DNA from: Candidatus Binataceae bacterium
GTDB taxonomy: Bacteria > Desulfobacterota > Binatia > Binatales > Binataceae
Reading direction: 5' to 3'
Assembly: GCA_015478645.1 (NCBI GenBank)
Contig: JADMIL010000008.1
Location: 1 to 64,000, forward strand
Length of the DNA: 64,000 nt
Made by a program: the position numbers and the translations under genes. The notes beneath the pieces are model-generated. The model did not search any database, had not been told where the DNA came from, and saw only the letters and a list, made by a program, of their open reading frames with translations. How positions within the stretch are numbered: position 1 is the first letter of the stretch; every line of letters begins with the position of its first letter. This document shows, piece after piece, positions 49,538 to 55,509 of the stretch.

Positions 49538-51640
49538 ATGGCAGTCGAGGAAACCGGTGGCTTAAGGACAATCGCAATCGTCGGCCAAGGTGGCGCCGGC
49601 AAGACGCAGCTCGCCGAGGCGATGCTGTTTACGGCCGGCGCGACCAAGAATCTCGGCCGTCCCGACGACGGCAGTGCCGCGATGGACTTCGAACCCGAAG
49701 AACTCGCGCGGCATATCTCGATCAGCTCCTCGTTTCATCATCTGAACTGGAAAAAGACCGACGTAATTATCGGCAACACCCCCGGTTACGCGGCCTTTCT
49801 GCCCGAAGCCTTCACGACCATGCGCGCGGTCGACGGCGTGGTCTTCGTGGTCAGCGCGGGCGGCGATCTCAAGGTCGAAGCGGAAAAGATCGCCGACGAG
49901 ATCAAACGGCTCGGCCTGCCGCGAATTGCCTTCGTCTCACGCCTGGAGCGCGAACGGATGAACTTCGCGGCGGCGCTCGAGGACCTCGAAAAGACGCTCG
50001 AACTCAAGCCGGTGGTCCTCACCTTGCCGATCGGCGAGGAGAGCGCGTTCAACGGCGTTATCGATCTGCTCGCGATGCGCGCCGTAATTTACGGCGACGC
50101 CAAGGCCCGGCCGCGCGAAGAAGAATTGACCGGCGATCTGTTGAGCCGCGCCGCGGCCGCGCGCACCCGCCTGTGCGAGGCCGTCGCCGAGACCGACGAC
50201 GCGCTGCTCGAGCGCTATCTCGAGCAGGGTGAATTGACCGAGGCCGAATTGCGCGCGGCGCTGCGCGTCGCGGTGCTCGAAGGCCAACTGATGCCGGTGC
50301 TGTGCGGATCCGGCGCGAAAAATATCGGCACCGGACCGCTGCTCGACGCGATCGCCGGCCTGCTGCCCGCGCCGGGCGAGCGCCCGGCCAATCAGGGCCA
50401 GGGCCCCGCCAACGGCACGCCGGCCGAACGTCCGCACGACCCCGCCGCACCGTTCTCGGCGATCGTCTTCAAGACCATCATCGATCCGTTCGCCGGCAAG
50501 CTCTCGATCATGCATGTGCTGTCGGGGCGTGCCGTGACCGATATGGCGGTGCTCAATTCGACCCGCGGCACCCGCGAGCACCTGGGGCATTTGCTGCGCC
50601 TGGAGGGCAAGAAGCAGGCGCCCGTGAATGCGGCGACGGCCGGCGAAATAATCGCCGTGGCCAAGCTCAAAGATACCACCACCGGCGACACGCTGTGCGA
50701 CGAGAAGGCGCCGATTATCTACCCGGTGCCGGAAAAGCCCGCGCCGGTGATCTCGTTTGCGATTCGGCCCAAGACCCGCTCCGACGAGGAGAAATCGTCG
50801 ATCGCGCTGCAGCGCCTGGTCGAAGAGGATCCCGCGCTCGAAACCCATCGCGACCCGCAGACCCATGAGATCATCCTGTCGGGTACCGGCCAGATGCATA
50901 TCGAGGTGACGGTCGAAAAGCTCAAGCGCAAGTTCAACGTCGAGGTCGAACTACAGGCGCCCAAGGTCCCGTACCTCGAGGCGATCAAGGGACGCGCCGA
51001 GGCCCAGGGCAAGTACAAGCGCCAATCGGGCGGACGCGGCCAGTACGGCGATTGCTGGCTCCGGATCGAACCGCGGCCGCGCGGCTCGGGCTTCGAGTTC
51101 GTCGACGAAATCGTCGGCGGCTCGATCCCGCGCCAGTTTATCCCGTCGGTCGAAAAGGGCGTGCGCAATACGCTGGCCGAGGGCTTCCAGGCGGGCTTTC
51201 CGATGGTTGACGTGCGCGTGACGGTTTACGACGGCAGCTATCACGACGTCGATTCGTCGGACATGGCGTTTCAAATCGCCGCCTCGATGGGGCTCAAGAA
51301 TGCGCTCGAAAAGGCCCGCCCGATTCTGCTCGAGCCGGTGATGGCGGTCGACGTGAGTGCGCCCGACGAATGCATGGGCGACGTGATTGGCGATATCAAT
51401 TCGCGCCGCGGCCGCGTGCTCGGAATGGACAGCAAGGGCCACGGCCAGGTGATCAAGGCGCTGGTCCCGATGGCCGAGATTCTCAAGTATGCGCCCGACC
51501 TGCGCTCGATCACCTCGGGGCGCGGATCGTTCGAGGTGCGCTTCGATCATTATGACGAAGTGCCCGCACCGATCGCCGAGAAGGTGATCAAAGAGGTGCA
51601 GGCGGCACAAGCCGGGGCCAAGGCTCACGCCCACGTCTGA
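49538..51640 (+). CDS. Elongation factor G-like protein with degenerate GTPase motifs
   Basis: A 700-residue EF-G homologue with all five domains (domains III-V are clear: FNVEVELQAPKVPYLEAIKGRAEAQGKYKRQSGGRGQYGDCWLRIEP, LLEPVMAVDVSAPDECMGDVIGDINSRRGRVLGMD). The P-loop GQGGAGKT (16-23) is kept. The G3 box, normally DTPGH, is NTPGY (80-84), and the G4 box, normally NKxD, is SRLE (134-137). Switch I has serines (SISSSF) where EF-G has threonines. This is the EF-G2-like paralogue family, but guanine recognition and hydrolysis residues are eroded here. GAGAGG precedes the ATG. It could be a pseudo-GTPase; it is unlikely to be the main elongation factor. Confidence 0.9.
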   Translation: MAVEETGGLRTIAIVGQGGAGKTQLAEAMLFTAGATKNLGRPDDGSAAMDFEPEELARHISISSSFHHLNWKKTDVIIGNTPGYAAFLPEAFTTMRAVDGVVFVVSAGGDLKVEAEKIADEIKRLGLPRIAFVSRLERERMNFAAALEDLEKTLELKPVVLTLPIGEESAFNGVIDLLAMRAVIYGDAKARPREEELTGDLLSRAAAARTRLCEAVAETDDALLERYLEQGELTEAELRAALRVAVLEGQLMPVLCGSGAKNIGTGPLLDAIAGLLPAPGERPANQGQGPANGTPAERPHDPAAPFSAIVFKTIIDPFAGKLSIMHVLSGRAVTDMAVLNSTRGTREHLGHLLRLEGKKQAPVNAATAGEIIAVAKLKDTTTGDTLCDEKAPIIYPVPEKPAPVISFAIRPKTRSDEEKSSIALQRLVEEDPALETHRDPQTHEIILSGTGQMHIEVTVEKLKRKFNVEVELQAPKVPYLEAIKGRAEAQGKYKRQSGGRGQYGDCWLRIEPRPRGSGFEFVDEIVGGSIPRQFIPSVEKGVRNTLAEGFQAGFPMVDVRVTVYDGSYHDVDSSDMAFQIAASMGLKNALEKARPILLEPVMAVDVSAPDECMGDVIGDINSRRGRVLGMDSKGHGQVIKALVPMAEILKYAPDLRSITSGRGSFEVRFDHYDEVPAPIAEKVIKEVQAAQAGAKAHAHV

Positions 51641-51714: not shown

Positions 51715-51936
51715 ATGGCCGCGCTGGGCAAATACCTGATCGTGTTCGGGTTCGCGATCGCCGCATGCGGGCTGATGGTCTGGTGCGCGTCGGCGCTGCC
51801 GATCGGCGGCCGGCTGGGCCGCCTGCCGGGCGACATTTACGTCCGGCGGGCTAACTTTACCTTCTACTTTCCGATCGCCACATCGATTGTCGTGAGCGTC
51901 GTGCTATCGATTCTCGTGGCCCTGCTGAGGCGTTGA
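51715..51936 (+). CDS. DUF2905 membrane protein
   Basis: A 73-residue protein with two membrane helices (YLIVFGFAIAACGLMVWCASA and FYFPIATSIVVSVVLSILVALL) and the DUF2905 signature LPGDIYVRRANFTFYFPIATSIVVS between them. A GTG two codons upstream (51709) is an alternative start. The stop codon TGA overlaps the ATG of the sensor kinase gene, so the two are translationally coupled. Function is unknown. Confidence 0.85.
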   Translation: MAALGKYLIVFGFAIAACGLMVWCASALPIGGRLGRLPGDIYVRRANFTFYFPIATSIVVSVVLSILVALLRR

Positions 51937-54158
51937 TGGCTGGTGAAGACGATACCGCGCTGACCGCCGCGGAGCTCAAGCGGCGCCATCGCGAGATGAT
52001 CGCGGTCGGCGTCGCCGCCGCCACGCTGATCGCCTTCGTCCTGGCGCAGACCACGCTGCCGCCGCTGACCTCGCATACTTCGCTGATCTCGAACCTGGTC
52101 GTAATCCTGCTTTTCGATCTGAGCTTCCTGCTGCTCGGACTGATGCTCCTGCTGGTCGGGCGCAATCTCGCCAAGGCCTTCTTCGAGCGGCGCCGCGGGT
52201 TGATCGGCTCGAAGCTGCAAGTGCGCCTGGTCTTTGGCTTTATCGCGGTGGCGCTGGTGCCGAGCGCGTTCCTGCTGTACGTCGCCGGCACCTTCCTGCA
52301 CGCCGACATGGATAGCTGGTTTAATCCCGAGTACGAACAGGTGCTCGACGATTCGCTCGATATCGCCAAGGTCTACTACCTCAACTCGGCCAACAACGCG
52401 GCGCATTTCGCCCGCGTGCTGGCCGAAAAGGTCGCCGATCACGACCTGCTCAATCCGGCCCGGCATCGCGACTTGCGCAAGATGGTCGAGAAGGCGCAGC
52501 AGGAGTTCAATCTCGGCACGGTCGAAGTGTTCTCCGCCAATCGGAGCCTGGTGATGTTCGTGCTGAGCCAGCGCACACCCACCGGAATCGGCGTCTCGCC
52601 GGACTCCGCGATCGTGATTGGCACGCTTGCCGGCCATACCATGACGCGCACCGATCGGCTGGGCAAATCCGACGTGATTCGCGGCAGCGCGCCGATCTAC
52701 GCCTCGCCCGATTCCGACAACGTGGTCGGCGCGATCGTCATCGACTACTACCTGCCCAAGAGTCTCGCGCAAAAGGCCGCCGGCATCTCGCGCACCTTCG
52801 AGGAATATTTCCAGTTGCGCATCCTCGACCAGCCGATCATGCACAGCTACATCCTGGCCCTGGTGCTGATCGGCCTGGCCGTCGTGCTCCTGGCGAGCTG
52901 GTTCGGCATCTACCTGGCGCGCGGAATTACCGGGCCGATCAAACTGCTGGCCGAGGGTACGCAGGCGGTCGCCGGCGGCAATCTGAGCTACGAGATTCCG
53001 CCCGTCGGCGACGACGAGATCGGCCACCTGGTCGGCTCCTTCAATCGCATGACGACCGATCTGCGCGCCTCGCGCGCCGAACTCGAGCGCCGCCGGCGCT
53101 ACACTGAGACGCTGCTGCGCAACGTCTCGGCCGGGGTCGTCGGGCTCGACCGCGAGGGCGCCGTGACCGCCATCAATCCGTGCGCCGAGCGGATGCTCGG
53201 ACTGCGCGGCGCCGAGGTGCTCGGCCGGCGCTACGGCGAATGCTTTCCGACGCCGCTGACCCGCACGCTCGACGAGATGCACGCCGCCGGTCCGCGCACG
53301 CAGGAGGATCGCGCCTCGCTTAAGCTCGAGGCCGGGGGCGCCGAAGCCGAACTCATGATGACGGCGAGTCCGCTCGGCGACGAAGCCGGCGAACTGGGCA
53401 CGGTGCTGTTTTTCGAAGACGTGAGCCAGATCGCCAAGGTCGAACGGATGGAAGCGTGGCGCGAAGTCGCGCGGCGCATCGCACACGAAATCAAGAATCC
53501 GCTCACCCCCATCCAGCTCTCGGCCGAGCGGCTGCGCCGCCAACTGGCCCCCGGCTCGGACGGCGACGCGCGCCTGCTCGACGAATGCACGCATACGATC
53601 ATCGGCGAGGTCGAGGACTTGAAGCGCCTGGTCAACGAGTTCGCCGCGTTCGCGCGGATGCCGCAGTTGAACCCGGTTCCGGGCGATCTCAACGCGCTAG
53701 CCGAGGAGACCGTCAACAATTTCCGCGAGGCCCACGGCGGCGTCGAGTTCGCGATGGCGCTCGCCGCGCGCCTGCCACTGATCGAGATCGATCGCGAGGC
53801 GCTCAAGCGCGCGCTGGTCAACCTGCTCGACAACGCCGTCGCCGCCGCGGTCGACGCCAACCACAATGGCGACCGGCCGCGGATCGACGTGCGCACGACC
53901 ACCGATCACAACAGCGGCGTGGTCACGCTGGAGATCTGCGACAACGGCCCGGGCATCGAGCCGCGCAATCGCGCACGCATCTTCGAGCCCTACTTTTCGA
54001 CCAAGAAAGGCGGCACCGGATTGGGCCTCGCGATTGTCGCGACGATCGTCACCGACCATCACGGCTTCATCCGGGTGCGCGACAACCGGCCGCGGGGAAG
54101 TAGATTTATCGTCGAATTCCCGGTAAAAGATCAGGTATCGGTAAAGCTTCCGGCATAG
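51936..54158 (+). CDS. NtrY-like membrane sensor histidine kinase
   Basis: A 740-residue kinase. It has three N-terminal membrane helices (about residues 20-115), a periplasmic sensor region (about 118-285), a fourth helix, a HAMP domain (ITGPIKLLAEGTQAVAGGNLSYEI), a PAS domain (about 380-490), a HisKA domain with the phospho-histidine in RRIAHEIKNPLTPIQLSAERLRR (about residue 515), and an HATPase domain with N, G1, F and G2 boxes (NLLDNAV, DNGPGI, FEPYFS, GTGLGL). This is the NtrY layout. NtrY normally phosphorylates the AAA+ regulator NtrX; here the next gene, 85 bases on, encodes a receiver domain fused to LpxC. Its start overlaps the stop codon of the DUF2905 gene. Confidence 0.94.
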   Translation: MAGEDDTALTAAELKRRHREMIAVGVAAATLIAFVLAQTTLPPLTSHTSLISNLVVILLFDLSFLLLGLMLLLVGRNLAKAFFERRRGLIGSKLQVRLVFGFIAVALVPSAFLLYVAGTFLHADMDSWFNPEYEQVLDDSLDIAKVYYLNSANNAAHFARVLAEKVADHDLLNPARHRDLRKMVEKAQQEFNLGTVEVFSANRSLVMFVLSQRTPTGIGVSPDSAIVIGTLAGHTMTRTDRLGKSDVIRGSAPIYASPDSDNVVGAIVIDYYLPKSLAQKAAGISRTFEEYFQLRILDQPIMHSYILALVLIGLAVVLLASWFGIYLARGITGPIKLLAEGTQAVAGGNLSYEIPPVGDDEIGHLVGSFNRMTTDLRASRAELERRRRYTETLLRNVSAGVVGLDREGAVTAINPCAERMLGLRGAEVLGRRYGECFPTPLTRTLDEMHAAGPRTQEDRASLKLEAGGAEAELMMTASPLGDEAGELGTVLFFEDVSQIAKVERMEAWREVARRIAHEIKNPLTPIQLSAERLRRQLAPGSDGDARLLDECTHTIIGEVEDLKRLVNEFAAFARMPQLNPVPGDLNALAEETVNNFREAHGGVEFAMALAARLPLIEIDREALKRALVNLLDNAVAAAVDANHNGDRPRIDVRTTTDHNSGVVTLEICDNGPGIEPRNRARIFEPYFSTKKGGTGLGLAIVATIVTDHHGFIRVRDNRPRGSRFIVEFPVKDQVSVKLPA

Positions 54159-54243
54159 CGACGCAAGCCTTGGCGGTGCCACGTGCAGCCTTCCGCGGCA
54201 TCCGCGATTCCGAAATCGGACAAATTTGCATAGCGCAGGAGTC

Positions 54244-55509
54244 ATGGTGAACACGACCGTACTGGTGGTGGACGATGAGGAGCGGATTCGTTCTTCACTG
54301 CGCGGCATCCTGAGCGACGAGGGCTTTCGCGTGCTCGACACCGGCGACGCGCCGGGCGTGATGGAGCTTATCGCGCGCGAAAATCCCGAGGTCGTGCTGC
54401 TCGACGTCTGGATGCCCGACCTCGACGGGATCGAGCTGCTCCGCCGGATTAAGGCCGAGCAGCCCGCCACTCGCGTGATCATGATTTCGGGCCACGCCAA
54501 TATCCAGAATGCGGTCGCCGCGACGCGCCTGGGCGCCGAAGATTTCCTCGAGAAGCCGTTTTCGGTGGGCGGCCTGCTGGCCTCGATCGAGCGCGTGCTT
54601 GCCGGCGCAAGCGGCCGGCCGCGCGGTCTCGACGTGAGCGTCGACCCGGCCGTGCGCGACGCCGCGGGCCCGCGCTTGGCAAAAGCCCTCGCGCATCCGC
54701 AGCGCACCGTGCGCGAGTCGCTGGTGCTGGCGGGGCAGGGGCTGCATTCGGGCCTCAAGACCGGGGTGATCCTGCATCCGGCGCCGGCCGGCACGGGCAT
54801 CGTGTTTTCCTCGCTGGCGGCGCAGTCGGAGATCGCGGCGCGGATCGAGAACGTCTCGGAGACCGGCTACAACACCACGCTGAGCGGCGGCGGCCATTCG
54901 ATTCGCACGGTCGAGCATCTCATGTCGGCGCTGCACGGACTCGGCATCACTAATCTGATGGTCAAGACCGATGACGAAGTGCCGGCGCTCGATGGCTCCG
55001 CACTCGAGTTCTGCACGCAATTGCGCGCGGTCGGGATGCGCGATCAGCCGGCCGCGGCCGATCCGATCGCGGTCACCCGGCCGATCCGGATTGGCGCCGG
55101 CGACGAGTTCATCCGCATCGCGCCGGCCGACCGCCTGATCATCGACTACACGCTCGACTATCCTCATCCGATCGGTGTCCAGCACGTGCATTTCGAGTTG
55201 ACCTCGCCCGACGCCTACGTCGATGAAATCGCGCCGGCGCGGACCTTTGGCTTCGTGCGCGAATTCCGCAAGCTGGCCGAGATGGGCCTGGCGAGCGGTG
55301 GCCGCCTCGACAATCTGATCCTGGTCGACGACGAAAAAGTCGTGAACACCACGCTGCGCTTCCCCGACGAATTCGCCCGTCACAAGGTGCTCGATCTGAT
55401 CGGCGACCTGTACCTGCTCGGCCGGCCGATCGTGGGCCACGTGACCGCCTCGAAATCAGGCCATTCCGACAATCTCGCCCTGCTGCGCGCGATCGCCGCA
55501 CAAGGGTAA
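54244..55509 (+). CDS. lpxC: Response-regulator receiver domain fused to LpxC deacetylase
   Basis: A 421-residue fusion. Residues 5-122 are a receiver domain with the acidic pair D10/D11 (VVDDEE), phospho-acceptor D54 (LLDVWMP), S82 (MISGH) and K104 (EKPF). After a linker, residues 157-421 are LpxC (UDP-3-O-acyl-GlcNAc deacetylase, committed step of lipid A synthesis), with E224/H225 (RTVEHLMSAL), H380, K381, D384, D388 (HKVLDLIGDL) and H407 (SKSGHSDNL), that is, all zinc and catalytic residues. E. coli LpxC has 305 residues and no receiver. A GTG one codon on (54247) fits the AGGAG spacing better and may be the true start. Partner kinase is probably the upstream NtrY-like protein. Confidence 0.93.
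   Translation: MVNTTVLVVDDEERIRSSLRGILSDEGFRVLDTGDAPGVMELIARENPEVVLLDVWMPDLDGIELLRRIKAEQPATRVIMISGHANIQNAVAATRLGAEDFLEKPFSVGGLLASIERVLAGASGRPRGLDVSVDPAVRDAAGPRLAKALAHPQRTVRESLVLAGQGLHSGLKTGVILHPAPAGTGIVFSSLAAQSEIAARIENVSETGYNTTLSGGGHSIRTVEHLMSALHGLGITNLMVKTDDEVPALDGSALEFCTQLRAVGMRDQPAAADPIAVTRPIRIGAGDEFIRIAPADRLIIDYTLDYPHPIGVQHVHFELTSPDAYVDEIAPARTFGFVREFRKLAEMGLASGGRLDNLILVDDEKVVNTTLRFPDEFARHKVLDLIGDLYLLGRPIVGHVTASKSGHSDNLALLRAIAAQG

Follow-up and report, generated by a model that had tools for sequence, protein, structure and literature searches.

The window analyzed here, a 64,000-nucleotide stretch of a Candidatus Binataceae bacterium genome, encodes a protein in which a response-regulator receiver domain precedes LpxC, which catalyzes the committed step toward the lipid anchor of the bacterial outer membrane. 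We propose that NtrX was turned into a receiver belonging to LpxC itself and that NtrY controls lipid A synthesis after translation, a reading we consider likely; the effect of phosphorylation on LpxC and the sign of that effect are inferred, and there are no biochemical data. The anatomy and descent of the fusion are well supported. The flux into lipid A is set by LpxC, which is essential in most cases and serves as a drug target; this enzyme is known to be controlled through proteolysis in E. coli, through MurA activation in P. aeruginosa, or at the level of transcription.

Anatomy of the fused protein

The initial annotation had placed an intact receiver and a complete LpxC in one frame, and each part of this held. 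The frame is open throughout (Table 1), and every named residue was found: the receiver's phospho-acceptor set D10, D11, D54, S82 and K104 and, by alignment to P. aeruginosa LpxC, the zinc ligands H225, H380 and D384 (H78, H237 and D241 in that enzyme) together with the catalytic set E224, K381, D388 and H407. The start was slightly corrected. Rather than ATG 54244, GTG 54247 is probably the true start, because the first methionine of relatives aligns with residue 2 and because the AGGAG motif lies 5 nt from the GTG and only 2 nt from the ATG.

Table 1 Features of the fusion locus and of related loci. Positions refer to the window unless a locus (L) is named.
Feature	Position	Strand	Remarks
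NtrY-type membrane histidine kinase, probable partner kinase	51933..54158	+	Pfam NtrY_N, HAMP, PAS, HisKA, HATPase_c; exact start uncertain
Shine-Dalgarno-like AGGAG	54237..54241	+	Before GTG 54247; relatives start at the aligned residue
REC-LpxC fusion gene	54244..55509	+	421 codons from ATG 54244, 420 from the likelier GTG 54247; stop 55507-55509
Receiver domain, residues 6-115	54259..54588	+	Pfam Response_reg, E 5.2e-30; closest family NtrX (regulator models, receiver tree)
Codon of predicted phospho-acceptor D54	54403..54405	+	Kept in 82/83 fused sequences
Variable, probably flexible linker, residues 122-144	54607..54675	+	pLDDT <50; length variable
LpxC deacetylase domain, residues 153-418	54700..55497	+	Pfam LpxC, E 2.7e-89; catalytic residues complete; lacks the C-terminal tail seen in unfused LpxCs
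NtrX::LpxC forms	L085-L092, L167-L172, e.g. L086:5959-8190 (-)		14 proteins; architecture unlike the window's
DUF4390 gene examples	L104:4104-4691 (-); L141:6562-7218; L224:6094-6747; L014:209-880		

The LpxC half scores 299.7 bits with the Pfam model PF03331 (cut-off 27), and the protein passes the TIGR00325 lpxC model with 266.9 bits (cut-off 187.25). Judged from sequence alone this half is catalytically complete by its residues, and deacetylase activity, inferred from these residues and from sole-copy status, is likely. NtrX is the best response-regulator model for the receiver. Pfam detects only receiver and LpxC, the AAA+ and helix-turn-helix domains of NtrX being absent. The protein is probably NtrX-derived yet no NtrX: it has the receiver likeness and the place behind ntrY but not the AAA+ and DNA-binding domain.

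No other LpxC was found in the window's genome, which is 92% complete and contains LpxB; of 14 further fusion genomes tested, 13 likewise have no LpxC besides the fused protein. As the sole LpxC, the fused enzyme must supply lipid A in these genomes.

Divergent receiver-LpxC proteins with 38% identity to that of the window occur at L103:4516-5832 (-) and L143:5262-6578 (-) in genomes G299 and G257, respectively, which also keep an ordinary LpxC and LapB; such a second-copy fusion may have another role. In family f51 (G130, G162, G190, G216, G240, G262, G303 and G324, all 99-100% complete) we found no LpxC match at all, and this could be a lineage without lipid A.

AlphaFold2 predicted two well-defined domains (mean pLDDT 81.5), with a low-confidence stretch around residues 336-371 of the LpxC domain and an unstructured linker. 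The best structural matches of the model are solved LpxC structures, with about 42% identity to P. aeruginosa LpxC in the comparison. We also considered whether the receiver docks in a fixed position on the active site; given the disordered linker and the lack of an interdomain error estimate, no contact is claimed. According to the model, a rigid allosteric contact is neither shown nor excluded, and docking, oligomerisation, localisation and turnover all remain compatible. Against a single rigid contact speak the predicted disorder of the linker and its widely variable length, about 19 to 67 residues in receiver-LpxC proteins. Some positions separate fused from unfused LpxC, e.g. K241 (Glu in unfused), C257 and Y306; on sequence evidence only, these may be candidates for receiver-LpxC contacts.

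Spread of the fusion and its origin from NtrX

In a sample of 57 genomes of relatives, the window's own included, 53 contain a near full-length match to the fusion, sharing 62-83% identity if from the same family and 48-55% if from elsewhere in the class. The remaining four comprise two copies cut by contig ends and two genomes without any. Across the phylum (297 genomes sampled; spread outside the phylum was not part of the counts) about 68 genomes have a fused LpxC: about 40 align over both domains (with one truncated at a contig end), 14 have a longer linker and 14 an AAA+ domain between receiver and LpxC. The fusion was also detected in a Nitrospinota record and in a contig-end record labelled Spirochaetes. 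The spirochaete-labelled match (L016) starts at the contig end, and a binning error is possible. In the LpxC tree, all 73 fused rows fall into one group (support 100), which a long stem (1.14) separates from 30 unfused rows. The fusion is old and widespread.

The worry that a frameshift or assembly error had joined two genes can be set aside. We found no evidence supporting such an artefact, and it is all but excluded by the identical architecture in about 68 phylum genomes and the Nitrospinota record, in many independent assemblies, and by dozens of relatives that share the fusion with 48-83% identity. Extra N-terminal domains were considered for very long frames (L109, L111, L112 and L134) and rejected; these frames are merely open upstream, and Pfam finds receiver and LpxC alone.

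Across 83 unique fused sequences none of the seven catalytic residues varies. D10, D11 and D54 are each kept in 82 of them, position 82 carries Ser or Thr in 81, and no sequence lacks K104. Such conservation would not be expected of an idle receiver. This bears on a rival reading in which the halves are independent: LpxC would be constitutive, the receiver would serve another partner, for instance as a phosphate sink for NtrY or a phosphorelay link, and fusion would only fix their ratio. The long, variable linker is in its favor, as is the bulky degenerate AAA+ domain kept between the halves in the NtrX::LpxC forms described below. However, a receiver without a role for the enzyme should have separated from it or degenerated in at least some of the many lineages, whereas fusion and residues are kept in 83 sequences, and the enzyme involved is a sole copy, here and in 13/14 other fusion genomes tested. 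We regard independent halves as very unlikely.

The NtrX::LpxC proteins, of about 705-776 residues, consist of a receiver, a sigma-54-type AAA+ domain, a vestigial helix-turn-helix and LpxC. In the L086 protein the NtrX model matches residues 6-456 and LpxC starts at 468. GAFTGA, the Walker-B Glu and the sensor-II Arg (of WPGNxREL) are lost in 14/14, so that these forms can hardly activate sigma-54 polymerase. Stand-alone NtrX-like proteins have the Walker-B DE and the WPGNxREL Arg in 13/13 and an exact GAFTGA in 11/13; NtrX-like proteins of the phylum score below the cut-off of the NtrX model, which was not used to count them. One of the 14, L168 (5815-7704, -), has no receiver in its frame and its close relative L087 has one; either an assembly frameshift or a real loss is possible. 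In a weakly resolved receiver tree, fused receivers are mixed with NtrX receivers and nearly all other regulators lie apart. The receiver of LpxC is thus likely to derive from an NtrX merged with the enzyme. The order of the receiver-LpxC and receiver-AAA+-LpxC forms is not settled by the LpxC tree; the order proposed below rests on NtrX as the evident source of both.

NtrY and the gene neighborhood

The kinase directly upstream of the fusion has the only NtrY_N match in the window's genome, and the next-best kinase is far weaker (E 6e-36 vs 0). In 17/17 loci examined of the window's class, and in all loci of the family with enough upstream DNA, ntrY is the gene immediately upstream of the fusion. 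In other families the fusion is found away from ntrY, and a full-length or nearly full-length NtrY with 37-43% identity is kept elsewhere in 10/10 such genomes checked. None of these ten has an NtrX gene beside the surviving NtrY, and several of the surviving NtrYs still stand behind DUF4390. Of 29 loci sampled from unfused genomes of the phylum, 15 have lpxC followed closely by ntrY on the same strand, with ntrX right behind in 10 of those 15, and a DUF4390 gene often lies between lpxC and ntrY. NtrY is the probable partner kinase, phosphotransfer being inferred from gene order, co-retention and conserved residues; in the many families where the fusion is not beside ntrY, the pairing rests on indirect evidence.

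Intermediates, unfused gene order, NtrY retention and the receiver tree together support both the descent of the receiver from NtrX and its continued pairing with NtrY. On balance we favor, with some reserve, a bolder reading: an lpxC-linked transcription regulator fused with LpxC and shed its transcription machinery through a preserved series, which includes separate NtrX and LpxC and then NtrX::LpxC with a dead AAA+ domain.

Several observations concern the neighborhood itself. In several families a DUF4390 (PF14334) gene stands between lpxC and ntrY or immediately precedes ntrY, and its product is perhaps accessory to NtrY sensing. Genome G102 holds an unfused lpxC-DUF4390-ntrY cluster without ntrX behind it (L232:1459-5467, -) and a receiver-LpxC fusion elsewhere (L101), an arrangement that may resemble a transitional state. 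In the window, a gene for an EF-G-like GTPase (49538-51640, +; Pfam EF-G domains) directly precedes ntrY.

Control of the fused enzyme and relation to known systems

In the proposed mechanism the protein would act as an enzymatic response regulator with LpxC as its output. An ancestral lpxC-DUF4390-ntrY-ntrX neighborhood would have given rise to an NtrX::LpxC fusion (the evidence is comparative, the order of events inferred). The AAA+ and DNA-binding parts would have lost their motifs in some lineages and disappeared in most, leaving receiver-linker-LpxC as the only LpxC. NtrY would phosphorylate D54 on an unidentified, probably envelope-related signal, as inferred from gene order, co-retention and conserved residues, and the state of the receiver would alter LpxC output, with the activity or the quaternary state of the tethered enzyme as the likeliest point of action. 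Control via the fusion would replace both control of lpxC transcription and control through the C-terminal tail. In alphaproteobacteria NtrYX reduces lpxC expression, and by analogy the phosphorylated form of the receiver may reduce LpxC output here; this inference is weak and the sign is unknown. The phosphorylation switch on LpxC put forward in the initial annotation as a direct post-translational control is supported by comparison, while the effect of D54 phosphorylation on activity or amount, and its sign, remain unproven.

Beyond the core fold of LpxC, unfused proteins of the phylum have a tail with a median of 33 residues (20-53) and fused ones a median of 4 (2-21), the window's LpxC having a few residues only. 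In E. coli the C-terminal region of LpxC contains an FtsH degron and is bound by LapB, and many LpxCs outside Enterobacteriaceae have no recognisable degron (PMC12444477). We found no LapB match at E 1e-20 in the window's genome, and its LpxC does not meet the criteria of the E. coli-type FtsH/LapB-controlled subtype, namely a degron tail and LapB. LapB-like proteins (E <1e-50) occur in 53/297 genomes and in 0/66 fusion genomes; two fusion genomes that have an ordinary LpxC too, G257 and G299, both have one. Weak LapB-like matches, with E between 1e-20 and 1e-34, came from 18 genomes (5 fusion genomes among them) and do not enter this count. The association between fusion and LapB absence (Fisher p 6e-7) is without phylogenetic correction. 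Because most unfused genomes also lack LapB, a swap of the degron for the receiver is possible as a consistent pattern and is not proven.

These data support an alternative in which the receiver sets the stability or location of LpxC and not its catalysis. Phosphorylation would decide hand-over to a protease or adaptor, or recruitment to the membrane near NtrY, and the receiver would stand in for the lost degron. The missing tail, the absence of a strong LapB homolog from 66 fusion genomes, the flexible, variable linker and the fact that E. coli controls LpxC through its amount (PMC12444477) agree with it. On the other hand, no adaptor or protease partner was identified and LapB is missing from most unfused phylum genomes too, and we consider it unlikely. 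A reverse flow, in which substrate or product is sensed by the LpxC domain, which in turn adjusts the receiver or NtrY so that the protein reports lipid A precursor levels, is less likely still. Active-site residues are retained and substrate-level sensing would suit feedback, without direct data; against it, there is no known output, as receiver-LpxC lacks a DNA-binding part and the AAA+ motifs of NtrX::LpxC are lost. We retain NtrY-to-LpxC control as the preferred reading.

The fusion resembles ordinary LpxC (UDP-3-O-acyl-GlcNAc deacetylase) in its whole domain, zinc ligands, catalytic residues and sole-copy status, but has an N-terminal receiver, no C-terminal tail and a long-stemmed group of its own within LpxC. 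Its likeness to NtrX lies in a receiver closest to that family and in the gene position directly behind ntrY, and full-length NtrX is still recognisable in the NtrX::LpxC forms; in contrast, the AAA+ and helix-turn-helix parts are absent from the window's protein and motif-dead in NtrX::LpxC, and the output is an enzyme. Response regulators with enzymatic output include CheB, PleD/WspR and the HD-GYP and PP2C types. In these, too, a receiver is fused directly to an enzyme domain, but one of signalling or adaptation, whereas here it is a sole-copy, committed enzyme of envelope biosynthesis. LpxC-FabZ (NF009667) is likewise a natural LpxC fusion, but joins two biosynthetic enzymes without a signalling domain; the window's protein scores 197 bits against its cut-off of 465. 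What is new is a sole-copy lipid A enzyme as output, with the NtrX::LpxC intermediate preserved. The initial annotation left open whether this architecture had been described, and we found no description of it in the open-access literature searched (subscription literature and domain-architecture databases were outside the scope); automatic domain databases probably list it.

Two-component systems of the same type act on LpxC supply elsewhere, though on transcription and with LpxC as a separate protein. In Desulfovibrio vulgaris the single target of the regulator DVU2934 is lpxC, and the Syntrophobacter fumaroxidans operon orthologous to that of DVU2934 comes immediately downstream of lpxC (PMC3333781). 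R. sphaeroides and Caulobacter both repress lpxC transcription through NtrYX, and without NtrYX lpxC mRNA rises 8.8-fold in R. sphaeroides, apparently indirectly (PMC7240162, PMC12444477). Since both act on lpxC, a type of regulator already tied to the gene appears here joined to the enzyme, although orthology of DVU2934 to this NtrX is not established.

Beyond the initial annotation, the comparison adds the source of the receiver (NtrX), the probable kinase (NtrY), the fusion intermediate, the single fused group and the loss of the degron region. The preserved series shows a transcription regulator turned into a domain of an enzyme and suggests that NtrYX, still a little-understood system, regulates the envelope or lipid A in these bacteria. 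A single phosphotransfer apparently leads from sensor to enzyme, which makes the response of lipid A synthesis to an external signal testable with two proteins, and the fusion would place outer-membrane synthesis under the direct control of a membrane sensor kinase.
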